A stretch of 64,000 bases of DNA from Cellulomonas palmilytica (GTDB lineage: Bacteria > Actinomycetota > Actinomycetes > Actinomycetales > Cellulomonadaceae): positions 1,426,001-1,490,000 of the forward strand of contig NZ_CP062221.1 of NCBI RefSeq assembly GCF_021590045.1, read 5' to 3'. Positions 9,078-41,927 of the stretch are shown piece after piece. The notes under the pieces were generated by a model. That model made no database searches. It worked only from the letters and a program-made list of their open reading frames with translations, and was not told the DNA's origin. The position numbers and the translations under genes were made by a program. Positions within the stretch are counted from its first letter, which is position 1; every line of letters starts with the position of its first letter.

Positions 9078-9097
9078 AACGTACAAGAATTCACCCG
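9078..9097 (-). promoter_or_regulatory. Shared motif plus -10 box upstream of beta-helix copy 1
   Basis: Read on the minus strand, CGGGTGAA (9097-9090) is followed after 6 nt by TACGTT (9083-9078), a TANNNT-type -10 box, about 100 nt before the gene start. The same GGGTGAA-N6-TACGNT layout is seen before the glycosyltransferase at 20896. Confidence 0.45.
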
Positions 9098-9200
9098 TTC
9101 GGCCGAGACCCTCTGCCCGTGACCAGGGACCGTTACCGCGTCGTGACCTTGCTGACCTGCGGCAGCGCCCACCTAGACAGTTGTCCGAAATGTGAGATTC

Positions 9201-10175
9201 TCACCGCCGTGAGACCCTGGCCAGGGCGCGACGCCCGACGTTGAGCACCCGGGCGGGCAGCTCGCGGATCTGCCGGCGACGCCGCTCACGGTCGTACCGG
9301 GCGCGCATCGACGCGACGAGCGCGACCCCGTCGGCCGGTGCGTCGACCAGCCCGCGCTCCGCCCAGAAGCCCGCGAGCTGCGCCGTCGCCTGCGGGTCGA
9401 GCCGGGGCACGGCGTCCCGGTGCAGGCCGAGCACCGGCAGGTCGCGGCCCGCGTCGAGCACCGCGCGCACGCCCTGCGGCGTCGCGAGCCGGGGCCACAC
9501 CACCGGGTTCGGCTCGTCGGTGAGCTCCAGGGTCCGTTCGAGCGTGCCGTCGCGCCGCGCCAGCCAACCCGCGTACAGGAAGAACTCGGTGAGGTCGTGC
9601 GCCAGGAACTCGCGCGCGAACGGGCGCCCCGCGGCCGACTCGACGTCCGCCAGCATCGCGAGCACGACCTCGCGGTCGAGCGTGAACGGCGTCGTCGTCG
9701 CCGCGAAGCGGCCCACGTGCTCGGCCGGGTCGAGGCCGAGGTACCGGCACACGCGCTCGAGCGCGGGCCGCAACGTGTGGTCGGTGTAGGAGTACGCGCG
9801 CACACGCGCGCGTCCGTCCGCCGCGACGAAGAACGCGTCGTCGGGCCGTGCGACGAAGTGGTTCTTCGCGTCGAGCGCGACGTAGTGCGGGGTCTCGACG
9901 AGCCGGGCCACCGCGAGCTTGAGGATCTGCTGGCTGCGCCAGCCGGACGTCGTCGGCAGGTCCGTGACGTCGGCCGGGCGCAGCACCCGCACGCGCGGGG
10001 CGAGCGCGCCGTACGCGCGGACCAGCGCGTCGACCTCCCGCAGGCCCCGGCGGGTGTTGTCCAGGACGACCACGCGGGCGTCGGACGGGGCGTGCCGCGC
10101 GAACGACCGCGCCTGCAGCCCGAGCAGCTGGACCTCCGCCTCGAAGACGGGGGTCACGAACGTGAGTGCCGGCAC
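9201..10175 (-). CDS. DUF6492 family putative glycosyltransferase
   Basis: The 324-residue soluble protein begins LTFVTPVFEAEVQLLGLQARSF and contains a short acidic-aromatic block, YVALDAKNHF, which is the hallmark of DUF6492. This family is thought to be GT-A-like glycosyltransferases, with the LDAKN Asp playing the role of the DxD metal ligand; that assignment is inference. Start GTG 10175 is supported by GGAAGGA 7 nt upstream. It lies between the two beta-helix genes on the same strand, with 110 nt and a strong terminator separating it from copy 2, so it has its own start signal. A role in adding a sugar to the island's polymer or to its secreted proteins is plausible. Confidence 0.65.
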   Translation of the reverse strand: MPALTFVTPVFEAEVQLLGLQARSFARHAPSDARVVVLDNTRRGLREVDALVRAYGALAPRVRVLRPADVTDLPTTSGWRSQQILKLAVARLVETPHYVALDAKNHFVARPDDAFFVAADGRARVRAYSYTDHTLRPALERVCRYLGLDPAEHVGRFAATTTPFTLDREVVLAMLADVESAAGRPFAREFLAHDLTEFFLYAGWLARRDGTLERTLELTDEPNPVVWPRLATPQGVRAVLDAGRDLPVLGLHRDAVPRLDPQATAQLAGFWAERGLVDAPADGVALVASMRARYDRERRRRQIRELPARVLNVGRRALARVSRR

Positions 10176-10220
10176 CGCGGGTCCTTCCAGTCACGGGTCC
10201 GGCGAGCGTAGCGAAGACGC

Positions 10221-10258
10221 GAGGGGACCGTCCCGGGTTTCCCCGGGACGGTCCCCTC
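10221..10258 (-). terminator. Perfect 17-bp terminator hairpin
   Basis: GAGGGGACCGTCCCGGG (10221-10237) and CCCGGGACGGTCCCCTC (10242-10258) pair perfectly around a 4-nt loop. It lies 28 nt after the stop of beta-helix copy 2 and before the DUF6492 start, so it insulates the two minus-strand genes. Confidence 0.85.
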
Positions 10259-10285
10259 GGCGTCAGCGGTCGACGGCCGCGCGGG

Positions 10286-11935
10286 TCAGCCCTTCTTCAG
10301 GGTGATGGCCGAGCCGTCCTCGTAGGTGTTCGAGGTGATGGTGCTCTTGCTCGTCGTCGTCGTCGGGGCGATGTACGCGCACCCCTTGCGGCTGTGCGAG
10401 CCGAACGTGTTGCCGCTCATCTGCAGGGCGATCGCGCCGCGACCGGACTCGGCCACGTTGACCGTGCAGGCGCCGTGGTCGAGGAAGTTGCGCTCGATGA
10501 CCAGGCCGGTCACGGTGCCGAGGCCCTGCGTCACCATGATGGCCGCGTTGTACGCGCCCTCCATGCGGTTGCCGATCAGCGAGATGTTCGCGCCCTTGAC
10601 GATCTGCACGTTGTCGTCGTGCGTCCCGTCGGAGTGGCTCGGGTCATTCTCGTAATGCAGCGTGTCGTGCAGCCAGGAAGCGGTCAGCTTCTTGTTGTCA
10701 CCGTAGAAGTGCACATTGTCGATGACGTCGTGGATGTTCAGTCGCGTCGCGTCGATGGTGCCGCTGCCGCGCAGGCCGTCGACCAGCCAGTTCGGCGTGG
10801 AGTTGTACAGCTCCGAGTCGGAGATCTTCAGCGACCCCGTGGACTCCACGACGACCAGGCCGCGCGCCACGTCGGTGGCACGGCCGCGCACGATCGTGTT
10901 CTGGATGACGACGTCCTTGGCCTTGACCGTGACGAAGCCCCGGATGTCCATGCCGTTGACGACCGTGCCGGCCTTCGTGATCGTGAGGTCACCGTTGTGG
11001 ACCTGGAGGTAGGTGCCGCGCGGGACGCCCGTGGTCGAGGCGCTCGGCACGTAGGTGCCGGGCTCGGGGGCGAGGGTCTTGTCGGCGCTCAGGTCGCGCG
11101 CGGCGTCGGTCGGGCCGGCCCACACGTCCGCGACCTGCGAGGTCACGGCGCCCGCCGTCGCGGGGGCGTACGTGGTGAACGCGACGCCGCCCGCGGTCTG
11201 CAGCGCGGCCGTCGAGTCGCTCGCGGTGAGCGTCCAGGCGTCGGGTTCCTGCGTGCCGGTCGGCCAGGCCTTGGCGGACACGACCGTGGGCGACGTGCCG
11301 GTCGCCTGGACGCGAACCTGCAGGTCAGCGGTGGGGTCGAGGCGCAGGCGCTCGGTCGTCGTGGCGATCGTCGAGGCGCTCGTGCCGTTCACCCGCAGCA
11401 GGCTGGGGACCACGGTGCCGTCCGTCTGGACCTTGAGCTTGAAGCGGTAGCCGGACGTCGTGTCCAGCGCGCGGGCGGTCGCGTACAGGTCCACGGTGCC
11501 GCTCTTCGGGAGCGCCGCGAGGCCGACCTGGGCCTGCAGCTCGGTGTCGGTCGACGACACGTCGAGGAAGGAGGACTGGTTGCCGCCCGTGCTGCCGAGC
11601 GCCGTGGTGGCGACGCCGCCCTCGGCCCGGAAGGCGGACGCCGCGGCGGAGTGCTCCCAGGCGCCGGACGACGCCTCGCCCCACCCGCTGGTGGTCTCGC
11701 GGTCGAACGTGTCGACGGCGTACGGCTGGGTCGACACGGCCTCGGACTCGGGGGCCGTGCTGTCGGGTGCGCCCCACGCCGAGGCGCTGGTGGTGCTCGT
11801 CACGACCATGCCGAGCGCGACGGCGGTCGCGGCACCGGCCGTCGCGAGAACGCGCCGGCGGGGATTCGATGAAGAAGTTGTGAATGCCGAGGTGGGGGAC
11901 GGCGAGGGGGACGGGACGCGCGTGGAAATGGGCAC
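10286..11935 (-). CDS. Secreted right-handed beta-helix protein with beta-sandwich N-domain (copy 2)
   Basis: The 549-residue protein has a signal peptide (RRR then VLATAGAATAVALGMVV, cleavage likely after SASA near residue 53). Residues about 72-270 are a beta-sandwich-like module (DTFDRETTSGWGEASSGAW ... DSTAALQTAGGVAF) also present twice in the 1,710-residue protein at 28624. Residues about 300-549 are a parallel beta-helix closely related to copy 1: shared blocks include SWLHD-LHY, DGTHDDN-QI, EGAYNAAIM and NVAE-GRG. Start GTG 11935 has AGGAGA five nt upstream. Copies 1 and 2 therefore share the C-terminal helix but carry unrelated N-terminal halves, which suggests the helix is the active or binding part. 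Likely acts in the extracellular matrix; no substrate is known. Confidence 0.8.
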   Translation of the reverse strand: MPISTRVPSPSPSPTSAFTTSSSNPRRRVLATAGAATAVALGMVVTSTTSASAWGAPDSTAPESEAVSTQPYAVDTFDRETTSGWGEASSGAWEHSAAASAFRAEGGVATTALGSTGGNQSSFLDVSSTDTELQAQVGLAALPKSGTVDLYATARALDTTSGYRFKLKVQTDGTVVPSLLRVNGTSASTIATTTERLRLDPTADLQVRVQATGTSPTVVSAKAWPTGTQEPDAWTLTASDSTAALQTAGGVAFTTYAPATAGAVTSQVADVWAGPTDAARDLSADKTLAPEPGTYVPSASTTGVPRGTYLQVHNGDLTITKAGTVVNGMDIRGFVTVKAKDVVIQNTIVRGRATDVARGLVVVESTGSLKISDSELYNSTPNWLVDGLRGSGTIDATRLNIHDVIDNVHFYGDNKKLTASWLHDTLHYENDPSHSDGTHDDNVQIVKGANISLIGNRMEGAYNAAIMVTQGLGTVTGLVIERNFLDHGACTVNVAESGRGAIALQMSGNTFGSHSRKGCAYIAPTTTTSKSTITSNTYEDGSAITLKKG

Positions 11936-11946
11936 AGAAATCTCCT

Positions 11947-12234
11947 GGGGGGATGCCTACTGCCGCGGTCCGGATCGGACCAGAGCGGGGGGGATGTGCT
12001 CTCCGCGGCCATTCCATGGTTACGCGTTGTTTGTCGGGACTTCTGGGGCGTAAGGACCAAGTCGGACGTGAGCCGAGCCACAATCCGCATTTCTGCGCTT
12101 TTTCACCCGCGCGCAATTCCGTGCGCACTCGGTCGAGTGACAGCGAACCGGGTGAAATCGGACGAACCGGTGTAGACAGGGACGGATCGCGCAGTAACCT
12201 CGCCGTACGCATGGGAACCCTGGGGGGGCTTGAC
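11947..12234. promoter_or_regulatory. Divergent regulatory region with two copies of the shared motif
   Basis: This 288-nt gap separates divergent genes (beta-helix copy 2 and the initiating sugar transferase). It holds TTTCACCCG at 12101-12109 and CGGGTGAAA at 12149-12157; each reads CGGGTGAAA in the direction of its own gene. A possible -10, TAACCT, lies near 12196. No other feature is seen. Confidence 0.5.
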
Positions 12235-13764
12235 ATGACGCTGACGGCCGACCGTGGTGGACCTGACGTCTACGAGTCGTTCGACCGCCGCGCCCGTTCG
12301 CGCGAGCCGCGCCGGTCGTGGGCGTCGACGCGACCCTTCGAACCGCGCAGGACGCCGTTCAACGCCCCGACGGTCGTCGCACGGACCTGGGCGGTGCGCT
12401 CGCGGCGCTCGCGCGCCCTGCTCGTCGTGACCGACGCGCTGTCGGCGTCGCTCGTGGCGCTCGCGCTCACCGCGACGACCATCGGCGTCGAGGGGGCGAC
12501 GCTCGCGTGGGCCGCGGCCGCCGGGGTCGTGCTGCCGGCCGCGATCGCGCTGACGCGCGGCTACGACGCCCGTCGGATCGGGGTCGGTGCGCAGGAGTTC
12601 CAGTCCGTCGTCACCGGCGGGCTGGCCGTGGCCGCGGCCGTGGTGGGCCTCGCCTTCACGTTCGAGCTGCCCGTCCCGCGCGCCGTGGTGTTCGCGGGCA
12701 TCCCGAGCGCCGTCGCGTTCGCCTGCCTGCTGCGGTACGCCGCGCGCAAGCGGCTGCACCACCGGCGTCAGCACGGCCTGGACATGCGCCGCACGCTCGT
12801 CGTCGGGCGGCCCCAGGACGCGTCCCGCGCGACGTACGAGCTCCAGCAGACCGCCTACGAGGGCTACGACGTCGTCGGGCTCTGCCTGCCGTCCGTCGAC
12901 GACCGCGCACCGCTCGTCGACGTCCCCGTGCTCGGGGCGGTCGCCGACATCGCGCAGGTCGTCTCCGACTACGCGATCGAGGTCGTCATCGTCACCAGCG
13001 GCACGCTGAGCGGGCCCGCCGCGCGCCGGCTCGGCTGGGCGCTCGACCGCGCGGGCGCCGAGATGGTGATGATGCCGGACCTCGTCGAGGTCAGCGGGCC
13101 GCGCCTGAGCGTGCGGCCCGTCGGGATCCTGCCGCTGCTCGAGGTGGAGGTGGCGCCGCCGCGACGGCGGATCGTCGCCAAGGCCGTGATGGACCGGATC
13201 CTGTCGCCGCTGTTCGCGCTCGCCGCCGCACCCGTCGTGCTGGTGCTCGCCGCAGCGGTCCGGCTCACCTCGGCCGGGCCCGCGTTCTACCGCAACACGC
13301 GGATCGGGGTCGACGGGCGCCCCTTCACCATGTGGAAGCTCCGCTCGATGTACGTCGACGCGGACGCCCGCCGGGCCGCGCTCGAGGCCTCCTCCGACGG
13401 CAACGGCGTGCTGTTCAAGATGCGCGACGACCCGCGCGTCACGCCGCTGGGCCGGTTCATGCGCAAGTACTCGCTCGACGAGCTCCCGCAGCTGTGGAAC
13501 GTGCTGCGGGGCGACATGTCGCTCGTCGGCCCCCGACCGCCGCTGCCCGGCGAGGTCAGCGAGTACGAGGACGAGGTGCACCGCCGCCTGCGCGTCAAGC
13601 CGGGGCTCACGGGCCTGTGGCAGGTCAGCGGACGCTCCGACCTCGACTGGGCCGACTCGGTGCGTCTGGACCTGCGGTACGCCGACAACTGGTCGTTCGC
13701 GATGGACCTCATGATCCTGTGGAAGACCGCGCGCGCCGTGTTCCTCTCCACCGGCGCCTACTGA
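12235..13764 (+). CDS. Polyprenyl glycosylphosphotransferase (WbaP/CpsE type) initiating EPS synthesis
   Basis: Transfers a sugar-1-phosphate from a UDP-sugar to undecaprenyl phosphate on the inner face of the membrane, the first step of a lipid-linked EPS repeat unit. The 509-residue protein has four to five N-terminal membrane segments (about 65-190), a CoA-binding-like domain (about 195-330) and the C-terminal catalytic domain: a membrane hairpin, FYRNTRIGVDGRPFTMWKLRSM, DPRVTPLGRFMRKYSLDELPQ and LVGPRPPLPGEV, then KPGLTGLWQVSGRSDL. These motifs define the family. ATG 12235 is preferred over ATG 12211 because a GGGGGG stretch precedes it by about 7 nt. It opens the plus-strand run and is followed by the acyltransferase 13 nt later. 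Confidence 0.93.
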   Translation: MTLTADRGGPDVYESFDRRARSREPRRSWASTRPFEPRRTPFNAPTVVARTWAVRSRRSRALLVVTDALSASLVALALTATTIGVEGATLAWAAAAGVVLPAAIALTRGYDARRIGVGAQEFQSVVTGGLAVAAAVVGLAFTFELPVPRAVVFAGIPSAVAFACLLRYAARKRLHHRRQHGLDMRRTLVVGRPQDASRATYELQQTAYEGYDVVGLCLPSVDDRAPLVDVPVLGAVADIAQVVSDYAIEVVIVTSGTLSGPAARRLGWALDRAGAEMVMMPDLVEVSGPRLSVRPVGILPLLEVEVAPPRRRIVAKAVMDRILSPLFALAAAPVVLVLAAAVRLTSAGPAFYRNTRIGVDGRPFTMWKLRSMYVDADARRAALEASSDGNGVLFKMRDDPRVTPLGRFMRKYSLDELPQLWNVLRGDMSLVGPRPPLPGEVSEYEDEVHRRLRVKPGLTGLWQVSGRSDLDWADSVRLDLRYADNWSFAMDLMILWKTARAVFLSTGAY

Positions 13765-18569: not shown

Positions 18570-20720
18570 CTACACAAAGGGTTCGAGCTCGCCGTCCGGC
18601 GTGCGGGTGAACTTGGGGGTGCTCGCGGGGTCGCCCACGGGGGTGGTCGCCGTGGTGCTCCCCGGGGTGCTCGCCCGGTTGGTCGCGTCCCCGGCGGTGC
18701 CGGTCACGGCCGCCACGACGTCGTCGGCGTAGCGCCGCAACGAGAACCGCTCGTGCGCGTCGTCCTCGCCCGTGGACGCGAGCGTGCGGCGGCGCTGCTC
18801 GTCGTGCAGCAGGGCCGCGACCGCGTCGGCGAGGGCGTGCGCGTCTCCGGGTGGGACGAGCAGGCCGGTGGTGCCGTCGCGGACCACCTCGGCCAGGCCC
18901 TGCACGTCGGACGCGACGAGCGGGCGGCGCGCGAGGAGCGCCTCGACGGCGGTGTTGCCGAACGGCTCCGCGCGCGAGGGGACGAGCACGACGTCCGCGG
19001 ACGCCAGCAGGTCCCAGGTCGGGTGCACGTACCCGAGGAGCTCGACGCGCCCCGCGAGGTCCGGCTGCCGCGCGCGGGTCCGTAGCTCGTCCTCGAACCA
19101 CTCGTAGCCCGCGAACGTCGTCCCCGCGACGGACAGCCGCACGTCCTCGCCCGCGGCCACGAGCAGCGCGACCGCCTCGAGCGCGACGTCCGTCCCCTTG
19201 CGGGGCGACAGCCGCCCGACGGAGACCAGGTGCCACGGTGCGCCCGGGGCGCGCTCGGCGTCCGTCGGGGCGTCGACGGGGCCGTCGGGCGGGCCGGCGA
19301 CGCCGTTGTGCACGACGAGCGTGCGACGGGCCAGGCGCGGGACGGCGCGCACGAGCGCCTCGCGGGCCGCCGCGGAGTTCGCGACGACGGTCCGGGACGC
19401 GAGGACCGGCAGCGCGAGCGCGGTCGCGACCATGCGGTTGCCGTCCTCGGCCTCGTGCACGTGCGTGAGCGTCGGGACTCCCGCGAGGCGGCCCGCGGCC
19501 GCCCACACGGGGATGGTCACCGTGTTGACGTACAGCACGTCCGGCCGGTCGGAGCGCAGCCGGCGGGCCGCCCGGAGCGTCGCGGTGAGCGAGCCCCATA
19601 GCAGCCGCGGCAGGCGCGTGGGGGCGAGCTCGGACTTGCGCAGCACGGGGAAGCCCGCGATCCGCACCTGCGCGCCCGCGTCGACGACGAGCGGCACGAG
19701 CGGACCCTCGTGGGGGAGCACGACCGTCACGCGGTGCCCGCGCGCGGTGAGCGCGCGCAGCGACTCGAGCAGCTGGCGGTCGGAGCCGTACAGGTCCGGC
19801 GACGGGTGCGCCACGACCACGCGCAGCGGGCGCTCGGCCGCGGGCCGGCGTGCGCCGCGGCGCACGAACCGGGCACCCTCGAGCGTGCCGCGCAGCGCGG
19901 CGAGCACCGGTCCGGGCGACCGCAGCAGCTGGCGGCGCCCGCCGCGCAGGACGACGTCGCGCGCGTACCGCGGCGCCGAGCGCACCCACCGCCGCGCGAG
20001 CTCCGGCTCGAGGTTGCGCGCCGCGAACACCAGCCGGCCGCGGCAGTTGTGCCGGTAGTAGAGGTCGGACTTGCGGCGCGACCCGCCGTGCTCCTGCGTC
20101 CCGCCGACGTCGTGCACCGCGGTGGTGGGCGCGACGAGCAGGTGGCCGCCCGCGGCGGCGACGCGCACCGAGAGGTCGATGTCCTCCCAGTACATGAAGA
20201 AGTCCTCGCTGAACCCCCCGACCCGGTCCCACAGGTCGACGTGCACCGCGAGGCACGCGCCGGTGAGCCAGTCGGGCTCGTCGCCCACCAGCTCCGGCCG
20301 GGTGCGGGTCCGGCCGGTGGTCCGGTCGAGCAGGCCGCCCTGGGACCAGACGGAGCCGTCGGGGCGCAGCACGTGCGGCGCGACGAGCGCGTCGTGGTCG
20401 GCCCGGGCGAGGTCGAGCAGCTCGCGGGCGCCGGCGGGTGTGAGCGTCAGGTCGGGGTTGAGCACGAGGAACGCCGACGCACCCAGCGCGCGGGCGGCCT
20501 CGACGCCGCGGTTGACGCCCGCGCCGAACCCGTCGTTCGGCGCGGTGACGAGGTGCCAGCCGCGCTCGCGGGCGAGCCGGGAGACCGCGGCGCGTTCGTC
20601 GTCGTCGGAGAAGTTGTCCACGACGACGACCGTGGCCTCCAGGCCGTCCGTCGTCGCGGCCAGGTACGTCGCGAGGAGTGCGTGCGAACGGTGGTTCACG
20701 ACGACGACCGCGTCGGTCAC
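18570..20720 (-). CDS. Two-domain glycosyltransferase (GT2 fused to GT4)
   Basis: The 716-residue protein joins two glycosyltransferases. Residues 1-280 are a GT2 rhamnosyl-like domain (VVVVNHRSHALL, VVVDNFSDD, FLVLNPDLTL as the D-x-D equivalent, FFMYWEDIDLSVR). Residues about 300-665 are a GT4 domain (VVVAHPSPDLYGSDRQLLE, HVHEAEDGNRM, LVSVGRLSPRKGTDVALEA, VPSRAEPFGNTAVEALLARRPLVASD). The last 50 residues are a Thr/Pro-rich tail. GTG 20720 is chosen because GGGAGG precedes it by 8 nt; the in-frame GTG at 20729 overlaps that ribosome site. The fusion would let one protein add two consecutive sugars of the repeat unit. The head of the three-gene minus-strand operon. Confidence 0.9.
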   Translation of the reverse strand: MTDAVVVVNHRSHALLATYLAATTDGLEATVVVVDNFSDDDERAAVSRLARERGWHLVTAPNDGFGAGVNRGVEAARALGASAFLVLNPDLTLTPAGARELLDLARADHDALVAPHVLRPDGSVWSQGGLLDRTTGRTRTRPELVGDEPDWLTGACLAVHVDLWDRVGGFSEDFFMYWEDIDLSVRVAAAGGHLLVAPTTAVHDVGGTQEHGGSRRKSDLYYRHNCRGRLVFAARNLEPELARRWVRSAPRYARDVVLRGGRRQLLRSPGPVLAALRGTLEGARFVRRGARRPAAERPLRVVVAHPSPDLYGSDRQLLESLRALTARGHRVTVVLPHEGPLVPLVVDAGAQVRIAGFPVLRKSELAPTRLPRLLWGSLTATLRAARRLRSDRPDVLYVNTVTIPVWAAAGRLAGVPTLTHVHEAEDGNRMVATALALPVLASRTVVANSAAAREALVRAVPRLARRTLVVHNGVAGPPDGPVDAPTDAERAPGAPWHLVSVGRLSPRKGTDVALEAVALLVAAGEDVRLSVAGTTFAGYEWFEDELRTRARQPDLAGRVELLGYVHPTWDLLASADVVLVPSRAEPFGNTAVEALLARRPLVASDVQGLAEVVRDGTTGLLVPPGDAHALADAVAALLHDEQRRRTLASTGEDDAHERFSLRRYADDVVAAVTGTAGDATNRASTPGSTTATTPVGDPASTPKFTRTPDGELEPFV

Positions 20721-20819: not shown

Positions 20820-20838
20820 GGGTGAACATCGGTACGAT
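20820..20838 (+). promoter_or_regulatory. GGGTGAA motif plus -10 box before the 20896 glycosyltransferase
   Basis: GGGTGAA (20820-20826), a 6-nt gap and TACGAT (20833-20838) lie in the 175-nt gap between divergent genes. The arrangement repeats that upstream of beta-helix copy 1. Confidence 0.5.
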
Positions 20839-21967: not shown

Positions 21968-21996
21968 CGGGCGAAAAACGGGTGGATTCGTACCGT
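21968..21996 (+). promoter_or_regulatory. Tandem motif and -10 box before the 22057 glycosyltransferase
   Basis: CGGGCGAA (21968-21975) and CGGGTGGA (21979-21986) lie in tandem, followed after 4 nt by TACCGT (21991-21996). This appears to be a variant of the island motif beside a TANNNT -10. Confidence 0.45.
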
Positions 21997-22056: not shown

Positions 22057-23247
22057 GTGACATCCCATCGTCCCCACGTCGCACTGGTCGGCACGCGCGG
22101 TGTGCCGGCGCGCTACGGGGGCTTCGAGACCGCGGCGGAGGAGATCGGGCGCCGGCTGGTCGCGGCGGGACACCCCGTGACCGTCTACTGCCGGCCCGTC
22201 GCGGGTGAGCCGCGGCTCACCGAGCACCTCGGGATGCGGCTCGTGCACCTGCCCGCGCTGCGGCACCGCGCGCTCGAGACGCTCTCCCACACCGGGCTCT
22301 CGGTCGGCCACCTGCTCGGCCACCGGGCGGACGCGGTGATCCTGTTCAACGCCGCGAACGCGCCGTGGCTCCCGGTGCTCCGAGCCGCGCGGATGCCGGT
22401 CGCGACGCACGTCGACGGGCTCGAGTGGAAGCGCTCCAAGTGGTCGGGGACCGGCCGGCGGTACTACCGCAACGCCGAGGCGCTGGCCGTGCGCTGGTCG
22501 GACGCGCTCATCGCGGACGCGCAGGGCATCGCGGACTACTACCAGCGCGAGTTCGCGGCGCCCACCGAGATCATCGCGTACGGCGCACCCCGCCTCGGTG
22601 ACGTCCCGGCGGACCGGCTCACCGAGCTGGGGCTCACGTCGGGCGGCTACCACCTGGTCGTCGCGCGGTTCGAGCCCGAGAACCACGTGGACGTCGCCGT
22701 CGAGGGCTACGTCGCGAGCGGGTGCCGCGAGCCCCTGGTGGTCGTCGGCTCCGCCCCGTACGCCGCGGAGTACACGCGCCGCGTCGAGTCGCTCGCGGAC
22801 GACCGGGTCCGCCTGCTCGGGGGCGTGTGGGACCAGGAGCTGCTCGACACCCTGTACGCCCACGCACTCACGTACGTGCACGGCCACAGCGTCGGCGGCA
22901 CCAACCCCTCGCTCCTGCGCGCGATCGGCGCGGGCACGGCGACCCTCGCGTTCGACGTCTCGTTCAACCGCGAGGTGCTCGGCGACGCCGGCCGCTACTT
23001 CACGACCCCCGCGGACGTCGCGCGCGAGCTCACCGCCGCCGAGCGGGACCCCGACGGGTGCCGCGACCGCGGCCGGGACCTCGCGCGCCGCGCGCTCGAC
23101 TACGACTGGGACGACGTCGCCGCACGGTACTCGGACCTGGCCGTCCGGCTCGCGGAGCGTCGGGTACGGCGCCCCCGCGGGCTCGGCCGCCGGCGCCCGG
23201 CGCCCGAGCCGCAGCCGCTCGCGGCCGCCGCGGTGGAGGCGTCATGA
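22057..23247 (+). CDS. GT4 glycosyltransferase with DUF1972 N-terminal domain (rhamnosyltransferase-like)
   Basis: The 396-residue protein opens with HVALVGTRGVPARYGGFETA, the diagnostic start of DUF1972 proteins such as putative rhamnosyltransferases of EPS clusters. The middle holds HVDGLEWKRSKWSG and ALIADAQGIADYY, and the donor half has VVARFEPENHVDVAVEGY and HGHSVGGTNPSLLRAI. Start GTG 22057 is set by GAGGAGAG at 22043-22050. The tail overlaps the next ORF by 4 nt (ATGA), starting a tightly coupled three-gene operon with the CDP-alcohol phosphotransferase and a GT2 enzyme. Its C-terminal 25 residues are Arg/Pro/Ala-rich and probably unstructured. Confidence 0.9.
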   Translation: MTSHRPHVALVGTRGVPARYGGFETAAEEIGRRLVAAGHPVTVYCRPVAGEPRLTEHLGMRLVHLPALRHRALETLSHTGLSVGHLLGHRADAVILFNAANAPWLPVLRAARMPVATHVDGLEWKRSKWSGTGRRYYRNAEALAVRWSDALIADAQGIADYYQREFAAPTEIIAYGAPRLGDVPADRLTELGLTSGGYHLVVARFEPENHVDVAVEGYVASGCREPLVVVGSAPYAAEYTRRVESLADDRVRLLGGVWDQELLDTLYAHALTYVHGHSVGGTNPSLLRAIGAGTATLAFDVSFNREVLGDAGRYFTTPADVARELTAAERDPDGCRDRGRDLARRALDYDWDDVAARYSDLAVRLAERRVRRPRGLGRRRPAPEPQPLAAAAVEAS

Positions 23248-28623: not shown

Positions 28624-31600
28624 ATGGCCGTCACCAGCCGCCTCGCGCGCACCATCGGGTTCCTGGCCGCGTGCGCGGTGACGTCGACGCTGGCCGTCGT
28701 CGTCGCGCCGTCGGCGCTCGCCGACACCGCGCCGCCGAACCCCGACAACCCCGTGACCGTCTCGGCCGACGGGCTCCCCACCGCGCAGGTCAACGGCGTC
28801 GTGTGGAACCTGCAGCCCGCCGGCGACAAGGTGTACGTCGGGGGTGAGTTCACGCGGGCCCGGCCGCCGGGTGCGGCCCCGGGCACCAGCGAGGTCGTCC
28901 GGAACAACATGATGGCGTTCAACCTGACGACCGGTGCGCTGGACAGCTCCTTCGCGCCCGACCTGAACGCGGAGGTCGACGACCTCGCGCTCTCGCCGGA
29001 CGGCACGCGGCTGTACGCGGTGGGGAACTTCACGTCGGTGAACGGGCAGGCCCGCTACCGGATCGCGGCGTTCGACACCGCGACCGGCGCGCTGATCTCG
29101 ACGTTCCGGCCGACGGTGAACTCCGGGATCAACGCGGTGGCGGTCACCAACTCGACCGTCTACATCGGTGGCAACTTCTCGAGCGTCAACGGGCAGACGC
29201 GCCAGCGGTTCGCGGCGCTGCGCGCCTCGGACGGCGGGAACCTGCCGCTGACCGCGACGATCGACGGCGGCGCGATCCAGGCGCTCGTCGTCGCCCCCGA
29301 CGGCGAGTCGGTCGTGCTCGGCGGCGCGTTCACGTCGGTGAACGGCTCGTCCAACCCGGGCTACGGGCTCGCGCGCCTCGCGACCGACGGCACGCTGCTC
29401 CCGCTGCCGGTCAACACCCAGATCCGCAACGGCGGCACCGAGTCCGCGATCCTCAGCCTCGAGACCGACGGCGAGAACTTCTACGGCACCGGCTACCACT
29501 TCGGTGGCGGCGGGAACGTCGAGGGCACGTTCGCGGCGGACTGGGCGACCGGGTCCGAGCTGTGGGTCGAGGACTGCCACGGCGACACGTACTCGTCGTA
29601 TCCGATGGGTGACGTCGTCTACTCGGCGAGCCACAAGCACTACTGCGGCAACTCGGGCGGCTTCCCGCAGACGACGCCGTGGTCGGTGTACCGCGCGACC
29701 GCGCTCACGAAGTGGGCGACGCGCATCAACACCCCCGACATCTACGGGTACCCGGACCACGACGGCGAGCCCTCGCCGACCATCCTGAACTGGTACCCGA
29801 CGATCAACGCCGGCACGTACACCGGCAAGTCGCAGGGCCCGTGGACGGTCACCGCGAAGGACGACTACGTCGTGTTCGGCGGCGAGTTCACGCAGGTCAA
29901 CGGCACGGGCCAGCAGGGTCTCGTGCGGTTCACGACGATCGACAAGGCGCCCATGAAGCAGGGTCCGCGCCTGTCCGGGTCGAACTACCCCGTTACCGCG
30001 ACCTCGGTGCAGGCGGGCGAGGTGCGCGTCTCCTGGAAGTCGAACTACGACCGGGACAACGAGACGCTGACCTACGCCGTCTACCGGCAGACGCAGAACA
30101 ACCCGCCGGTGCACGTCGAGACGCTGTCGACGACGTTCTGGAACGTCAGGACGATGCGGTTCACGGACCGTGACCCGTCCCTGACACCGGGCACGACGAC
30201 GAGGTACCGCGTGGTCGTGACGGACCCGTTCGGGAACTCGGCCTCGTCCGCGTGGACCTCGGTCACCGTGAGCGACAAGACGCTCGGCGCGTACGGCACG
30301 AAGGTGCTCGACGACGGCGCCGCGCACTTCTGGCGCCTGTCCGAGCCGGCCGGGACGACGACCGTGACGGACTACGCGGGCGGTGAGGACGCCGTGGCGT
30401 CCGCGGGCGTCACGCGCGGCGCGGCCGGTGCCGTCGTCGGTGACACCGACACGGCATCGACGTTCAGCGGGTCGTCGAACGGTCTGGCCGCCACGCAGAC
30501 CGCGGTCCCCGGGCCGCAGACCTTCGCGATCGAGGGCTGGTTCAAGACGACGACGCGGGCCGGCGGCAAGATCGTCGGATTCGGCAACCGGAACACCGGG
30601 AGCTCGACGAGCTACGACCGGCACGTCTACATGGACACCTCCGGTCGCGTCCTGTTCGGCGTGTACCCGGGCTCGTCGCAGACCGTCCAGAGCGCGACCG
30701 GCTTCAACGACGGCGCGTGGCACCACGTGGTGGCGTCGCTCGGCCCGGACGGCATGAAGCTGTTCCTGGACGGCAAGCGCGTCGCGCAGAAGACGAGCGT
30801 CACCAGCGCGCAGAGCTACGACGGCTACTGGCGCATCGGTGGCGACAGCCCGTGGACCGCTGCCGCGTACTTCAACGGCACGATCGACGACGTCGCGATC
30901 TACGACGAGCCGCTCACCGCGGCCCAGGTGGACGCGCACTGGGTGGCCTCCGGGCGCACCTCGAGCGTCACGCCGGTGCCGGCAGACGCGTACGGCGCCG
31001 CTGTACGCGCGGCGAACCCCGACCTGTACTGGCGCCTCGGTGAGGCGGCGGGTGCCACGGCGGCCGACACCGGTCCGCTGTCCTACCCGGGCACGTACAG
31101 CGGCGGCTTGACGCGCGGTGTGGCGGGTGCGCTCACCGGGACGAGCAACACCGCGGTGACGTTCGGCGGCACGAACGGGCTGGTCGCGAGCCAGGCCGAC
31201 TTCAACGGCCCCGACGTCTACTCCGAGGAGCTGTGGTTCAGGACCACCACCACGGCGGGCGGCAAGCTCATCGGGTTCGGTGACGCCGCCACCGGGACGA
31301 GCAGCAACTACGACCGTCACGTGTACATGGAGGAGGACGGCAAGCTGACGTTCGGCGTGTGGACCGGCGAGGAGAACACCATCACGACGCCCGCGTCGTA
31401 CAACGACGGCGTCTGGCACCACATGGTCGCCACGCAGGGCCCGGACGGCATGAAGCTGTACGTCGACGGCGTGCTCCGCGGGACCCACGCGCAGACCTCG
31501 CAGCAGGTGTACACCGGCTACTGGCGCGTCGGTGGGGACTCCACCTGGGGTCCGCAGCCGTGGTTCGCGGGCAGCATCGACGAGGTCGCGGTGTACGGCA

Positions 31601-33756
31601 GCGTCCTCGACGCCGCGACCGTCGCGCACCACTACTCGGTCGGTTCGGGCACCCCGGTGCCGAACCAGCCGCCGACGGCCGCGTTCGACGTCGAGGCGGA
31701 CCACCTCGCGGTGTCCGTCGACGGCTCGGCCTCGGCCGACGCCGACGGGACCGTCGCGAGCTGGTCGTGGGCCTGGGGCGACGGCACGACGTCCACGGGT
31801 GCGACCGCGACCCACACGTACGCCACCGGCGGCACGAAGTCGATCACGCTCACCGTGACCGACGACGACGGCGCGACCGCGAGCGTCACGCACGAGGTCA
31901 CGGTCGCGGCGAACCAGGCGCCGGTCGCGGCGTTCACCTCTGAGGTCCAGCACCTGGGCGTCTCGGTCGACGGCACCGGGTCGAGCGACCCGGACGGGTC
32001 GGTCGCGTCCTGGTCGTGGAGCTGGGGCGACGGGACGGCGGACGGGTCCGGCTCGACGGCGACGCACACGTACGCGACGCCGGGCGACAAGACCATCACG
32101 CTGACCGTGACGGACGACGACGGTGCGGCCGCCAGCGTCACGCACGAGGTGACGGTCACCGAGCCGCCGGCGGACGCGCCGTTCGTCCGCGACGACTTCG
32201 CACGGACCGCGAGCAACGGCTGGGGCACCGCCCCGGTGGGTGGCGCGTGGACCGCCGTCGGTGCGGCGAGCCGGCTGTCGGTCGCGGGCGGCGTGGGTGT
32301 CATCACGGCCCCGCGCGGGGCGACGAGCGGGGCGGTGCTCGGCGACGTCGCCGCGAGCGACACGGCCCTGACGGGCAAGGTTTCGCTGGGCGCCCTGTCG
32401 ACCGGCAACTCCTTCGTCACCTTCCAGGCTCGTCGCGTCGACGCCGACTCCTACGGCGGCCGGCTGCGGCTCGCCGCGGACGGCTCCGTCCAGCTGCACG
32501 TGACGCGCGAGGTGGGTGGCACGACCACGGCGATCTCCGGCGGTGCCGTGTCCGGCCTGACGTACTCGCCGGGTGCCGCGATCGCGGTCCGCGTCGAGGC
32601 CGAGGGCACGAACCCGACGCTGATCCGGGCGAAGGCGTGGCCCGCGGGCTCCCCGGAGCCGGCGGCCTGGCGGGTCCAGACGACGGACTCCACCGCGGCG
32701 CTGCAGACCGCCGGCGGCGTGGGCGTGGTCGCGTACCACGGCGGCGCGACCGGTGCACCGTCGCTCGTGTTCTCGGTCGACGACCTGCTCGCGCAGCGCG
32801 TCGGTGCCGAGGCGCCCGAGGAGCCCGAGGAGCCGGAGGAGCCCGAGCCGCCCGTGAACACCGCGCCCACCGCGGCGTTCACGAGCAGCGCCGCCGGGCT
32901 GACGGTGTCCGTCAACGGCTCCGGCTCCTCCGACGCGGAGGGCGCGATCGCGTCGTACAGCTGGACGTGGGGTGACGACTCGGCGCCCACGACCGGCACG
33001 AGCGCGACCGCGTCGCACACCTACGCCGAGGCGGGCACCTACGAGGTGCGGCTGACCGTCATGGACGCCGGTGGGCTGACCGCCACGGTCGCGCACGACG
33101 TGACGGTCACCGCGCCGGCGCCCGGCGGCCCGTTCGCGCAGGACGCGTTCGGCCGCACCGCGTCCAACGGCTGGGGCGACGCCCAGGTCGGCGGCGCGTG
33201 GACCTCGGTCGGTCCCGGCGCCCGCCTGACCGTCTCGGGCGGCAAGGGCGTCATGACGGTGCCGCGCGGCGGGACCACGGGCGCCCGGCTCAACTCCGTC
33301 TCGCAGGAGTCGACCGACGCGGTGGCGACGCTCGACCTCGACCGCCTGCCGGGCGGCACGTCGTTCGCGACGCTGCAGGGCCGGACCGTCGGTGACGCGG
33401 CGTACGGCGGGCGCGTGCGCATCGCGGCCGACGGCACCGTCCAGCTGCACGCGGTGCGGACGGTCGGTGGCACGACGACGGCGATCTCGGGCGGCGCGGT
33501 CGCCGGGCTCGTGGTCGAGCCGGGCACGCCCCTGTCGGTCCGCGTCCAGGTGACCGGGACCTCGCCGACGACGATCCGGGCCAAGGTCTGGGTCGCCGGA
33601 CAGCCGGAGCCCGAGCAGTGGCGCGTCTCGACGACGGACGGCAACGCGGCGCTGCAGGAGCCCGGTGGGGTCGGGTTCGAGGTCTACCACGGTGGCGCGA
33701 CCGGCGACCCGTCGCTGGTGTTCCTCTGGGACGACCTGGTGGCGCGCGCGGTCTGA
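28624..33756 (+). CDS. Secreted 1,710-residue multidomain surface protein (delta-60 propeller, FN3, LamG, PKD, beta-sandwich)
   Basis: A signal peptide ends near SALA (residue 36). Residues about 50-440 hold delta-60-type repeats (VYVGGEFTRA, LYAVGNFTSVNGQ, VYIGGNFSSVNGQ, VVLGGAFTSVNG), likely a beta-propeller. Then follow FN3 (about 443-554), two LamG-like lectin domains (557-781 and 789-1009, each with YDRHVYM and YWRVGGDS-type blocks), two PKD domains (1014-1179, SWSWGDGT), a beta-sandwich module (1183-1390), a Glu/Pro spacer, a third PKD (1413-1496) and a second copy of the beta-sandwich (1503-1710). No LPxTG or membrane anchor ends the protein, so it is released or held by binding. ATG 28624 has GGAGG upstream. 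An adhesin or matrix scaffold is the likely role. Confidence 0.85.
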   Translation: MAVTSRLARTIGFLAACAVTSTLAVVVAPSALADTAPPNPDNPVTVSADGLPTAQVNGVVWNLQPAGDKVYVGGEFTRARPPGAAPGTSEVVRNNMMAFNLTTGALDSSFAPDLNAEVDDLALSPDGTRLYAVGNFTSVNGQARYRIAAFDTATGALISTFRPTVNSGINAVAVTNSTVYIGGNFSSVNGQTRQRFAALRASDGGNLPLTATIDGGAIQALVVAPDGESVVLGGAFTSVNGSSNPGYGLARLATDGTLLPLPVNTQIRNGGTESAILSLETDGENFYGTGYHFGGGGNVEGTFAADWATGSELWVEDCHGDTYSSYPMGDVVYSASHKHYCGNSGGFPQTTPWSVYRATALTKWATRINTPDIYGYPDHDGEPSPTILNWYPTINAGTYTGKSQGPWTVTAKDDYVVFGGEFTQVNGTGQQGLVRFTTIDKAPMKQGPRLSGSNYPVTATSVQAGEVRVSWKSNYDRDNETLTYAVYRQTQNNPPVHVETLSTTFWNVRTMRFTDRDPSLTPGTTTRYRVVVTDPFGNSASSAWTSVTVSDKTLGAYGTKVLDDGAAHFWRLSEPAGTTTVTDYAGGEDAVASAGVTRGAAGAVVGDTDTASTFSGSSNGLAATQTAVPGPQTFAIEGWFKTTTRAGGKIVGFGNRNTGSSTSYDRHVYMDTSGRVLFGVYPGSSQTVQSATGFNDGAWHHVVASLGPDGMKLFLDGKRVAQKTSVTSAQSYDGYWRIGGDSPWTAAAYFNGTIDDVAIYDEPLTAAQVDAHWVASGRTSSVTPVPADAYGAAVRAANPDLYWRLGEAAGATAADTGPLSYPGTYSGGLTRGVAGALTGTSNTAVTFGGTNGLVASQADFNGPDVYSEELWFRTTTTAGGKLIGFGDAATGTSSNYDRHVYMEEDGKLTFGVWTGEENTITTPASYNDGVWHHMVATQGPDGMKLYVDGVLRGTHAQTSQQVYTGYWRVGGDSTWGPQPWFAGSIDEVAVYGSVLDAATVAHHYSVGSGTPVPNQPPTAAFDVEADHLAVSVDGSASADADGTVASWSWAWGDGTTSTGATATHTYATGGTKSITLTVTDDDGATASVTHEVTVAANQAPVAAFTSEVQHLGVSVDGTGSSDPDGSVASWSWSWGDGTADGSGSTATHTYATPGDKTITLTVTDDDGAAASVTHEVTVTEPPADAPFVRDDFARTASNGWGTAPVGGAWTAVGAASRLSVAGGVGVITAPRGATSGAVLGDVAASDTALTGKVSLGALSTGNSFVTFQARRVDADSYGGRLRLAADGSVQLHVTREVGGTTTAISGGAVSGLTYSPGAAIAVRVEAEGTNPTLIRAKAWPAGSPEPAAWRVQTTDSTAALQTAGGVGVVAYHGGATGAPSLVFSVDDLLAQRVGAEAPEEPEEPEEPEPPVNTAPTAAFTSSAAGLTVSVNGSGSSDAEGAIASYSWTWGDDSAPTTGTSATASHTYAEAGTYEVRLTVMDAGGLTATVAHDVTVTAPAPGGPFAQDAFGRTASNGWGDAQVGGAWTSVGPGARLTVSGGKGVMTVPRGGTTGARLNSVSQESTDAVATLDLDRLPGGTSFATLQGRTVGDAAYGGRVRIAADGTVQLHAVRTVGGTTTAISGGAVAGLVVEPGTPLSVRVQVTGTSPTTIRAKVWVAGQPEPEQWRVSTTDGNAALQEPGGVGFEVYHGGATGDPSLVFLWDDLVARAV

Positions 33757-35139: not shown

Positions 35140-35236
35140 GTCCCTCCCCGAGGTCGGTCGAGACCGGCACCCGTGCGGCCCGGTTCCGCCACATCGTCGC
35201 ACCCGCACCCTCGTGACCCGGACGGGTGTGCCGTTT

Positions 35237-35281
35237 TTCGCCCGTCTGGCCCCTGTTTCGCCCGTTCTGCCCGCATAGACT
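35237..35281 (+). promoter_or_regulatory. Tandem TTCGCCCG motifs and leaderless -10 box
   Basis: TTCGCCCG at 35237-35244 and 35257-35264 are 20 bp apart. TAGACT at 35276-35281 ends 7 nt before ATG 35289, which would give a leaderless mRNA, common in actinobacteria. Confidence 0.5.
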
Positions 35282-40700: not shown

Positions 40701-41408
40701 ACCGAGACCGCGCACGACCGGCTGCAGACCATCGCCGCGAACACCGACCTCGGCGCCGGCATGGCGGTGGCCATGAAGGACCTCGAGATCCGCGGCGCCG
40801 GGAACCTGCTCGGCGGCGAGCAGTCCGGGCACATCGAGGGCGTCGGCTTCGACCTGTACATCCGGATGGTCGGCGAGGCCGTCGCCGCGTTCCGCGACGA
40901 CGTGCCCGAGGAGCTGCCCGACGTCACCATCGAGCTGCCCGTCGACGCGCACATCCCGCACGACTACATCGCGCACGAGCGCCTGCGCCTCGAGGCGTAC
41001 CGCAAGATCGCCGTCGCCGCCGACGACACCGCGCTGCGCGAGGTCCACGCCGAGCTCGTCGACCGCTACGGGCCCGTGCCCGAGGCCGTCGACAACCTGT
41101 TCGAGGTCGCGCAGTTCCGCCAGCACGCCCGACGAGCGGGTCTGTCGGACATCACCGCGCAGGGCAAGTTCGTGCGCTTCGCGCCCGTCGAGCTGCCCGA
41201 GTCCGCGCAGCTGCGGCTCAAGCGCCTCTACCCGGGGTCGGTGCTCAAGCCCGCGCTGCGCACCGTGCTCGTCCCGTTCCCGACGACCGCACGCATCGGC
41301 GGCAAGCCGCTGCACGGCCGCGACGTCCTGACCTGGTGCCGTCAGCTCATCGACGCGGTGGTCCTCAACGACGTCTCCGCCGCCGCGAAGGTGGGCACGA
41401 CCCGCTGA
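37794..41408 (+). CDS. mfd: Transcription-repair coupling factor
   Basis: Removes RNA polymerase stalled at DNA lesions and recruits UvrAB. The 1,204-residue protein has the full Mfd layout: UvrB-homology N-terminus (VVTTATGRDADELADALRCY, LPAWETLPHERLSP), a CarD-like RNA-polymerase interaction domain (DFVVHEQHGVGRFVEL near residue 520), a RecG-like translocase with Walker A GDVGYGKTE near 676-684, DEEQ at 776-779, SATPIPRTL, and QLRGRVGRG near 950, and the C-terminal TRCF domain that masks UvrA binding. ATG 37794 is preceded by GAAGGA. Composition matches the housekeeping genes, so it marks the right border of the EPS island. Confidence 0.97.
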   Translation: MDLTGLLPALLADPAAAAALEAVPARGEVDVVGPAGIRPPLLAALAGAGGHVAGRPLVVTTATGRDADELADALRCYLPDDDVAVLPAWETLPHERLSPRADTVARRLAVFRRLANPTPERGPAGPIRVLVVPVRALLQPVVDGLGELRPVEVAVGDTVDMDDLTQRLADAAYSRVDMVEKRGEFAVRGGIVDVFPPTESHPLRVELWGEEVEEIRWFSVADQRSLEVADHGLWAPPCREILLTDAVRERAASLVPQLPGAIDMLDKLAAGIAVEGMESLAPVLVDRMVPVLDLVPDDALLVLADPERIRRRAHDLVATTQEFLEAAWTSAAAGAATPLDLSAASFATFAEVRALSQVRGLGWWTLSGFTLDAGADDESAAAPVRDTDGVETLVVAAREVERYRGEVARAVADVRELQRAGWRLVLATEGHGPAQRMVEQLKAADCPARLVATIDSEPSGGVVLVTPAPVGPGFVAEAQRLAVFSEADLTGRAGSSTRDMRRMPSRRRNVVDPLQLRAGDFVVHEQHGVGRFVELVQRTIGSGAAAATREYLVIEYASSKRGQPGDRLYVPTDQLDQVTKYVGGEAPSLNRMGGADWAKTKGRARKAVKEIASELIRLYSARMATPGHAFGADTPWQRELEDAFAYVETPDQLATIDEVKADMEKPIPMDRLVCGDVGYGKTEIAVRAAFKAVQDGKQVAVLVPTTLLVQQHYDTFAERYSPYPVTVKALSRFQTAKESKEILDGLADGSVDVVIGTHRLITGGVRFKDLGLVVIDEEQRFGVEHKETLKALRTNVDVLAMSATPIPRTLEMAVTGIREMSTLATPPEERHPVLTFVGPYEEKQISAAIRRELLREGQVFYVHNRVESIERVASRLNELVPEARIAVAHGKMGEHQLERVIVDFWEKRFDVLVCTTIVETGLDISNANTLILESADRLGLSQLHQLRGRVGRGRERAYAYFLYPPEKPLTETAHDRLQTIAANTDLGAGMAVAMKDLEIRGAGNLLGGEQSGHIEGVGFDLYIRMVGEAVAAFRDDVPEELPDVTIELPVDAHIPHDYIAHERLRLEAYRKIAVAADDTALREVHAELVDRYGPVPEAVDNLFEVAQFRQHARRAGLSDITAQGKFVRFAPVELPESAQLRLKRLYPGSVLKPALRTVLVPFPTTARIGGKPLHGRDVLTWCRQLIDAVVLNDVSAAAKVGTTR

Positions 41409-41429
41409 CCGGGCCGTCATGCGACCGCG

Positions 41430-41463
41430 CCTGCGCGCCCGGGAGGGGGTCCGGGCGCGCAGG
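41430..41463. terminator. Bidirectional terminator after mfd
   Basis: CCTGCGCGCCCGG (41430-41442) and CCGGGCGCGCAGG (41451-41463) form a perfect 13-bp stem between the convergent mfd and DUF1508 genes. Confidence 0.85.
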
Positions 41464-41468
41464 TGGGG

Positions 41469-41639
41469 TCACGCCTCGACGACGGCGGCGTCCGCCGCGT
41501 TCTTCTTGATCGACTCGACCGTCGACTTCGCCGACGCCTTCTCCGTGTACTGCTGGCTGTGGGCGAGGACGTTGCCGTTCTGCGCGACGATCCGGAAGAA
41601 CCACTTGCCGTTGTCGCTCTTGACGATCTCGAACTTCAT
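41469..41639 (-). CDS. DUF1508 (YegP-like) small protein
   Basis: The 56-residue protein MKFEIVKSDNGKWFFRIVAQ onward is a single YegP/DUF1508 repeat: a three-stranded sheet (KFEIVKS, WFFRIVA, GNVLAHS) followed by a helix with the typical YTEKASAKSTVESIKKNA pattern. E. coli YegP has two such repeats; actinobacteria often have this one-repeat form. The function of the family is unknown, although expression in stress is reported for relatives. ATG 41639 is the only sensible start; the open frame upstream to 41927 lacks family similarity. A TTTCACCCG motif lies at 41723-41731 upstream, as before several EPS genes. Confidence 0.85.
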   Translation of the reverse strand: MKFEIVKSDNGKWFFRIVAQNGNVLAHSQQYTEKASAKSTVESIKKNAADAAVVEA

Positions 41640-41927
41640 CGGGCTGCTCCATCCACGCGCCGTTGCATGACGCTGCCCAGCCAACACCCGCGGTCCGCGC
41701 CCGAGGCAGACGGCTCCCGCGCTTTCACCCGTGTGGGCGGGGTCCTGTGCCGTGCTCTCGCGTCCGCGAGGTGACGCCTGTCGCCTGGTTATCCACAGAT
41801 AGCGACGACGTTGCCGTCCCGTTTGTCGGGCTGTGACTAGTTTTCGAGTCGGCCGGATGGGATCGTTCCCACCGGCGAGCGGCGCAGAGCTGCGCTGCTC
41901 CCATCGAAGGACAGGCAGGGGGAACAC
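41640..41927. promoter_or_regulatory. Intergenic region between DUF1508 and the small exported protein
   Basis: It holds one island-type motif (TTTCACCCG, 41723-41731, reading CGGGTGAAA towards DUF1508) and a DnaA-box-like TTATCCACA at 41789-41797. Sequence here has more A and T than its neighbours. No gene is seen. Confidence 0.4.

Follow-up and report, generated by a model that had tools for sequence, protein, structure and literature searches.

A conserved box in the promoters of exopolysaccharide genes of Cellulomonas: a putative activator operator at fixed distance from the -10 element

Introduction

Does a short word that recurs between the genes of an exopolysaccharide (EPS) island mark a common regulatory signal? 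The question is raised by a 64,000-nucleotide stretch of Cellulomonas palmilytica (NZ_CP062221.1), hereafter the window, which corresponds to bases 1426001-1490000 of a single-contig 3.83 Mb genome (G000) and in which the island was taken to span 6707-41900. The word CGGGTGAA and its variants recur there in intergenic DNA, and the original prediction ascribed them to a single regulator of EPS production. The present analysis points to a longer element, GGGTGAAAWCGGRCRnA, which with a probability of about 0.78 is the operator core that marks the EPS regulon and would be bound by a putative activator near the -35 region. Since the box sits at a fixed distance from gene starts, it is probably a signal through which a switch protein turns on the sugar-coat genes together.

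Among the top-ranked papers of searches in an open-licence literature collection, no description of an EPS regulon or EPS promoter element of Cellulomonas was noted, which is not proof of absence in print. The conserved box together with its fixed promoter geometry would define such a regulon from sequence, and one circuit would then link the initiating transferase, a bacterial tyrosine kinase (BY-kinase), a DUF4012 protein, a secreted PKD/LamG protein, a FAD oxidoreductase and glycosyltransferases. The box could also be used as bait to isolate the regulator, with the promoter as a guide for assigning genes of unknown function to EPS production. Caution is needed in such assignments, as the GGGTGAA words of these genomes belong to two regulons at least, one for EPS and one for phosphate.

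Conservation of the box upstream of the initiating transferase

Conservation upstream of orthologous EPS genes had been named beforehand as a test of the prediction. A search of named genomes with the transferase gave 26 loci, from which the 14 closest were used and 12 more distant ones excluded. These relatives, found by protein and not by motif, comprise eight Cellulomonas (one of them a metagenome-assembled genome, MAG), four Actinotalea, Pengzhenrongella frigida and one Actinomycetales MAG; in the NCBI taxonomy Actinotalea belongs to the Cellulomonadaceae and Pengzhenrongella is incertae sedis in the Micrococcales. Four of them also belong to the set of 60 genus genomes used below. The box precedes the transferase in 14/14 relatives, and the prediction was not refuted on this point. 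In each locus GGGTGAAA is followed either by WCGGRC, which gives the exact 14-mer core GGGTGAAAWCGGRC (13 loci), or by TAGGAC (one locus). The box is located 84-186 bp ahead of the match start or start codon of the transferase, and a TANNNT hexamer begins 44-46 nt after the core start in all 14.

The loci were divided at the gene preceding the transferase into an EPS side and a housekeeping side. In intergenic DNA, GGGTGAA was found 40 times per 19,394 bp (2.06/kb) on the EPS side versus once per 14,962 bp (0.07/kb) on the housekeeping side, and inside genes it occurs at about 0.09/kb on both sides alike. None of nine permuted 7-mers displayed a comparable contrast and two went the opposite way; the strongest for the EPS side, AGGGTGA with 9 versus 2 matches, overlaps the motif. 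In three loci (L081, L084 and L086, at about 17,100), an inverted repeat TTCACCC-N9/10-GGGTGAA, its spacer counted by eye, is followed by AAATGTCCG and precedes a sugar dehydrogenase-like operon.

Distribution of the extended core in the genus and the order

In the 60 genus genomes, which include that of the window, GGGTGAAAWCGGRC has 62 matches in 43 genomes and a single match in the reversed control. The genome of the window contains exactly two, at window positions 12150 and 28492, both in the island. Among the 61 cores in fetched loci, 39 lie before an initiating transferase, three before a PKD/LamG homologue in reverse orientation and 19 at other places. By our own count, 53 of the 62 core sites border polysaccharide- or island-type genes and nine do not (L124, L129, L135, L137, L139, L141, L146, L148 and L163). 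The 53 are made up of the 39 transferase sites, the three PKD sites, the PKD site of the window, a presumed transferase promoter, recognised from pth upstream and from the contig end that cuts it (L150), and nine sites assigned by the Pfam domains of their neighbours (L112, L138, L144, L145, L156, L157, L160, L161 and L166). The latter neighbours are a hexapeptide acyltransferase, a GT2 protein, GT2-GtrA proteins (three), nucleotidyl transferases (two) and GNAT/FemAB-like acetyltransferases (two); the box is reversed relative to its neighbour in L156, L157, L160 and L161, where the two are divergent. No pstS-like neighbour was found among the 61 sites.

Of 149 sampled order genomes, 14 contain the core (17 matches, versus 4 in the reversed control), namely four of the 11 family genomes and ten genomes outside the family, with 11 places. 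None of these 11 places has a called neighbour that resembles an island protein; no neighbour was called at two of them, and two fall inside genes. Because the places outside the family are devoid of island-like neighbours, the EPS box looks restricted to the Cellulomonas family and very close relatives.

Promoter architecture

TANNNT begins 45 nt (17 promoters) or 46 nt (22) after the core start in 39/39 transferase promoters. These promoters thus carry a -10 hexamer of sigma-70 type at constant distance from the presumed activator site, and the EPS box looks like an activator operator, a known kind of element. The sites ahead of other genes weigh more in this respect, since the transferase promoters are orthologues. 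Among the 19 other core sites, picked by the 14-mer alone, TANNNT is found at 44-47 nt in six: before a hexapeptide acyltransferase (L112), an RCC1-repeat protein (L124), GT2-GtrA proteins (L144, L145 and L166, the first two with identical promoter sequence) and in L150. In the genome of the window, 87 intergenic sites were compared (the window being read for GGGYGAA and the fetched stretches for GGGTGAA), and the conserved -10 spacing is found at only 3 of them, those of the transferase, the BY-kinase (27550) and the DUF4012 gene.

A search of the genus by geometry alone gave 62 matches in 47/60 genomes at the three spacings, with 3 in the reversed control, versus 39 matches at 12 other spacings, with 9 in the reversed control; four of these 39 are tandem copies located upstream of EPS boxes. 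The 62 matches include 37 core sites, 20 newly fetched ones (L191-L210) and the DUF4012 site read in L188; four (G016, G030, G044 and G057:799602) stand outside the classification. Of the 20 new matches, ten precede a conserved FAD oxidoreductase gene with a GT2 gene in divergent orientation, two a DUF1972 GT4 gene, two a transferase, one a DUF4012 gene and one a PadR-type gene beside a PKD/LamG homologue, and four have no island-type gene. Among the ten oxidoreductase loci, L191 was the one scanned, its GT2 gene included, and the other nine were assigned by a similar protein start.

The FAD-dependent oxidoreductase measures 400-407 aa, with PF01266 in L191, and has the EPS-type promoter in 10 genus genomes (L191-L200). 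The PadR-type regulator gene (118 aa; L203, G008:C1:1152691), with GGGTGAA and TAGCCT at the EPS spacing in one genome, is a further regulator lead. In three other places (G027:C1:897471, G033:C15:227112 and G035:C13:234161), a promoter-like GGGTGAAAG...CCCGAATCGGACAATTGGG...TAGCCT was observed, in which the CGGACA half is retained and GGGTGAA is shifted upstream.

The anatomy of the promoter was read from 37 non-redundant transferase promoters, drawn from 53 windows of which 49 are distinct. The conserved block measures 17 bp, GGGTGAAAWCGGRCRnA, and the next strong block is TANNNT. In between, conservation in the -35 region amounts to a weak trace of CTGA (positions 22-25, with C at 73%, T at 49%, G at 46% and A at 65%), and a best match to TTGACA of at least 4/6 at spacers of 16-18 bp is present in 8/37 promoters, about 3 being expected from shuffles. 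Further GGGTGAA-like copies were found at -10 to -12 in 11 promoters, at -20 to -22 in 15 and inverted at -33/-34 in 14, the expectation being 0.49 per single offset.

The activator would sit on the core, which would span about -57 to -41 from the start point and so lie immediately ahead of the -35 region. From there it could compensate for the weak -35 (the CTGA-like trace, its spacer being 17-18 bp) by helping RNA polymerase. Extra half-sites upstream, most often about 11 or 20-22 bp away, or 33-34 bp away when inverted, may aid cooperative binding; a helical phasing of these half-sites is suggestive only, because copies at -9, at +18 to +20 and at +29 are likewise more frequent than expected. 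An activating mode is proposed solely because of the position and conservation of the core.

The layout of the core also recalls AraC/XylS-type proteins, monomers with two helix-turn-helix (HTH) motifs, which would bind a single asymmetric site, some 17 bp long and functional in either orientation, with repeats about 20-21 bp apart. The core is indeed asymmetric, composed of two blocks, GGGTGA and CGGRCA, and occurs in both orientations. Direct copies lie at -20 to -22 in 15/37 promoters, and the window has copies spaced by 20 bp and by 21 bp, for which the spacing at araI of AraC offers a comparison. The spacing of the copies is however variable (9, 11 and 20-22 bp, and 13 bp by eye in L106 and L121), and a protein of this type is distinctly unlikely.

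Several observations weigh against a common activator operator. Much of the 39/39 reflects shared descent, because the conservation is mostly among orthologous transferase promoters, and 13 of the 19 other core sites do not have the conserved spacing. The boxes of the PKD, acyltransferase and cytidylyltransferase genes in the window are reversed and lie outside this spacing. Copies at offsets -9 (5/37), +29 (5) and +18 to +20 (4 each) are above expectation as well. The exact core is absent from 17/60 genus genomes and from 7/8 sampled family genomes of other genera. Finally, the site set of the original prediction is narrowed: the full core is present at only two window sites and the heptamer alone at six, while three promoters of the genome keep the conserved -10 spacing.

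The bare word in the window and in the genome

Intergenic DNA was delimited with a crude gene caller (codon log-odds, trained on the window), the errors of which are inherited by the intergenic fractions; permuted words in the same DNA were therefore used as control. The eight exact intergenic copies of CGGGTGAA and the seven variants of the original prediction were all located at their positions, and two further copies, not mentioned there, lie within genes at 11388 and 18604. Their excess over chance was borne out, with 10 copies in 64 kb versus 1.42 (standard deviation 1.27, maximum 6) in 100 dinucleotide shuffles. All eight intergenic copies fall in the 3,147 bp of island intergenic DNA, versus none in the intergenic parts of 1-6706 and 43001-64000 (4,601 bp), positions 41901-43000 being excluded from this comparison. 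When CGGGTGAA and its 839 permutations were counted in island intergenic DNA, the mean was 0.11 and the runner-up reached 2. GGGTGAA was the top 7-mer by unseeded k-mer counting (52 versus 5.7 expected). A de novo expectation-maximization motif search of intergenic DNA was given up after it had drifted towards codon periodicity.

The genome contains 125 copies of CGGGTGAA, of which 100 were fetched, L050 and L067 among them having identical surrounding sequence. Among these 100 matches listed, 72 are intergenic, the corresponding share of permuted 8-mers in the fetched DNA being 26%. The bare word probably carries more than one function, because it is mostly intergenic genome-wide in this way, and at least one copy lies in a PHO box; as an EPS signature it was abandoned. 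The same numbers, and the many copies before genes of no evident EPS role, would agree with GGGTGAA being a general intergenic word of a GC-rich genome whose cluster in the island is incidental. This reading is disfavoured because the extended core is island-only in this genome, its spacing is fixed and the EPS and housekeeping sides differ in the 14 relatives; it is very improbable.

Three details of the original prediction were revised. The extension to CGGGTGAARAACGG is exact at no site, and two sites (21968 and 35231) read CGGGCGAAAAACGG. The layout GGGTGAA-6 nt-TACGNT is real at 9090 and 20820, yet it concerns only 2 of the 87 intergenic sites; as a general layout with a -10 at 13 nt it was rejected, the conserved spacing being 44-46 nt. 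No EPS tie was found for the copy at 41724, which adjoins a DUF1508 gene. As to a single EPS regulator, it is the simplest reading for the conserved core, the bare 8-mer being no EPS signature.

The PHO box and other known sites

The copy of CGGGTGAA at 1185910 belongs to a tandem, GGGTGAACCCTGGGTGAAC, that separates the gene of an OmpR-type response regulator from pstS. In the genus, the tandem pattern has 18 matches in 16/60 genomes, 15 of them flanked on one side by the gene of an MTRILxVEDE-type response regulator and on the other by a pstS-like gene, the latter term meaning an N-terminus like that of the PstS of the genome under study, the one that was scanned. The remaining three are beside a lipoprotein gene (L180) and beside two DUF4956-type genes, one of which was scanned. 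By its sequence the tandem is a PHO box, because it matches the GTTCACC repeats published for Streptomyces coelicolor, GTTCACC being the most conserved motif of the PHO box there (PMC4415409).

The EPS boxes could likewise be PHO-type operators, read by the PhoP/RegX3-like regulator encoded beside pstS or by an OmpR-family paralogue, and EPS would then respond to phosphate or another two-component signal. The two elements share the GGGTGAA word, and GGGTGAACNNNGGGTGAAC adjoins pstS-like genes in the genus. Moreover, PhoB acts at pssA of Rhizobium leguminosarum, at the first step of EPS synthesis, in an unrelated bacterium with several regulators there (PMC4415409). As for the 11-nt repeat units of the PHO box, a GGGTGAA-like unit is found 10-12 bp upstream in 11/37 EPS promoters and at exactly 11 bp in 7/37, whereas 30/37 have no unit of at least 5/7 at 11 bp. 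The EPS box is thus devoid of an obligatory 11-bp tandem. It also differs by the A that replaces C after GGGTGAA (GGTGAAA in 37/37 EPS promoters instead of GGTGAAC), by the conserved CGGRCA and by its targets, the EPS core having no pstS-like neighbour among the 61 sites and the exact core and exact tandem patterns selecting different genes. The A is invariant by construction, the alignment being anchored on GGGTGAAA; the 14 relatives found by protein each have a GGGTGAAA-type site at the conserved spacing. Altogether, a PHO-type operator is possible, though doubtful.

GGGTGAA(C) boxes were also observed before a small membrane protein gene in L186, L187 and L011 (G000:83701), in tandem in the first two; this gene, DUF4956 in L186, is perhaps a further member of the phosphate regulon. 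In L026 (G000:872267), two GGGTGAA copies 22 bp apart precede a low-molecular-weight phosphotyrosine phosphatase gene, the product of which is a plausible partner of the BY-kinase.

The sites of BldM and BldM-WhiI in Streptomyces, TCACcCgnncGgGTGA and TGnnCCGnnCGGGTGA (PMC4125116), share with the EPS box the CGGGTGA half-site and, in the non-palindromic class, a second half like TG..CCG. The second block of the EPS box is however on the other side of GGGTGA, 3' of GGGTGAA, with another spacing, and the palindrome centred on 2 nt falls outside the conserved core; the 16-bp BldM or BldM-WhiI site is therefore not what is conserved. Some conservation exists in positions -1 to -5 of the EPS box only at -3 (A 68%) and -4 (A 46%).

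Candidate regulators

No obvious regulator was seen inside the EPS clusters when the gene lists of the 14 relatives were read by eye, without a family scan. A TetR-like gene with a DEVDRI-type neighbour upstream of glmU in 8 loci was rejected, both lying on the housekeeping side.

A standalone GerE-like protein of LuxR type might bind the GGGTGAA boxes upstream of EPS genes as well as the one in its own promoter. It has the size and domain of GerE of Bacillus, which is its best solved relative (1fse; VpsT ranks fourth), a likeness by sequence alone between GerE and a candidate regulator. A close relative is present in 40/40 genus genomes (best E 3.8e-27 or better), and at E<=1e-15 the protein was found in 11/149 order genomes, that is in 11/11 of the family and 0/138 others; the 14-mer core in EPS contexts is likewise confined to the family within this sample. 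GGGTGAA occurs within 330 bp upstream of the LuxR-type gene in 20/30 genus loci (2.2% in shuffled sequence), and in 18 it lies 32-34 nt before TATCW. BldM of Streptomyces is a response regulator of the NarL/LuxR type. Its half-site CGGGTGA resembles the box (PMC4125116). The accessible part of PMC517825 yielded no GerE site for comparison.

The shared heptamer is however the sole link of this protein to EPS, the CGGRCA half not being conserved at its promoter. Moreover, the heptamer is absent upstream of the gene in 10/30 genus loci and, in the best loci of other family genera, it is absent in 5/8 and displaced in 3. The protein is present in seven family genomes that do not have the exact core, the distributions of protein and core tracing one clade, and each genus genome encodes 10-31 related LuxR domains. 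Binding of the boxes by the GerE-like protein is a rather doubtful proposal, and it is unlikely that this family-confined, self-controlling protein of 76 residues is the master activator of exopolysaccharide. If it were, asymmetric GGGTGAA half-sites would be read whatever their orientation, and neither the usual two-component nor the usual cyclic di-GMP scheme would apply.

Upstream of the LuxR-type gene (L211-L240), a long conserved leader with GTTCATTGTGG, GCGTCATRG and CTCTCATCCGGTACGCAGCC was observed in many genus loci; it is possibly made of two promoters or of a structured 5' untranslated region. The four of these loci that were scanned gave no Rfam match at the gathering threshold.

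Sites and genes of the window

Table 1. Boxes, promoter elements and genes discussed in the text (window coordinates, unless preceded by G000)
Feature	Position	Strand	Remarks
Full EPS box GGGTGAAATCGGACGAA	12150..12166	+	Before initiating sugar transferase; exact 14-mer core
-10-like TAACCT	12195..12200	+	45 nt downstream of transferase box, conserved spacing
Initiating sugar transferase, EPS polyprenyl glycosylphosphotransferase	12235..13764	+	Pfam PF02397; TIGR03025 404 bits, cut-off 296
Box TTCACCCG before BY-kinase	27550..27557	-	Minus-strand GGGTGAA, TACCGT 44 nt downstream
-10-like TACCGT, BY-kinase promoter	27507..27512	-	
Wzz-like / BY-kinase fusion	25681..27474	-	Pfam Wzz and AAA_31; TIGR01007 181 bits, cut-off 108
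Divergent variants CGGGCGAA and CGGGTGAC	27567..27589	+	TACACT 35 nt after GGGCGAA; precede 27671/27707 gene
Full core GGGTGAAAACGGGC before PKD/LamG secreted protein	28492..28505	-	Reverse orientation
Second GGGTGAA copy	28520..28527	-	21 bp from 28492 core
Large secreted PKD/LamG protein	28624..33756	+	Pfam
Variant box CGGGCGAAAAACGG before acyltransferase gene	35231..35244	-	
Second CGGGCGAA copy	35257..35264	-	20 bp from 35231 box, ahead of TAGACT
Acyltransferase PF01757	35385..36452	+	Start further upstream, near 35290, possible
Box (GGGTGAAGAAACGG) before cytidylyltransferase-like gene	25005..25012	-	
Cytidylyltransferase-like protein	25115..25561	+	PF01467
Tandem variants CGGGCGAA and CGGGTGGA	21968..21986	+	11 bp apart; before DUF1972 glycosyltransferase
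DUF1972 / GT4 glycosyltransferase	22057..23247	+	
Box facing 10286-11935 gene	12102..12109	-	Heptamer only
Box before beta-helix protein gene	9090..9097	-	Heptamer only
GGGTGAA before 20896 glycosyltransferase	20820..20826	+	Heptamer only
Box near DUF1508 gene	41724..41731	-	Heptamer only; membership doubtful
DUF4012 gene	144..1682	+	Box at G000:1425605, 396 bp before window; TAGCCT at spacing 45
Genic copy	11388..11395	-	Probably chance
Genic copy	18604..18611	+	Probably chance
GerE-like LuxR-type protein	G000:886410-886637		76 aa, HTH only

Some of the sites in Table 1 recur in other genomes. The box of the PKD/LamG protein has an identical place and orientation in L106, L121 and L140, and a GATATGTCC-like element lies downstream in 3/4 of these reverse-orientation promoters (L106, L121 and the window), with GATATGCCC in L140. 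The box of the DUF1972 glycosyltransferase was also found in the orthologous promoters of L202 and L205. The window gave no Rfam match at the gathering threshold. Finally, the site at 9090 lies within an inverted repeat that, read by eye, runs CCGAACG...CGTTCGG along the minus strand (window 9078-9103).

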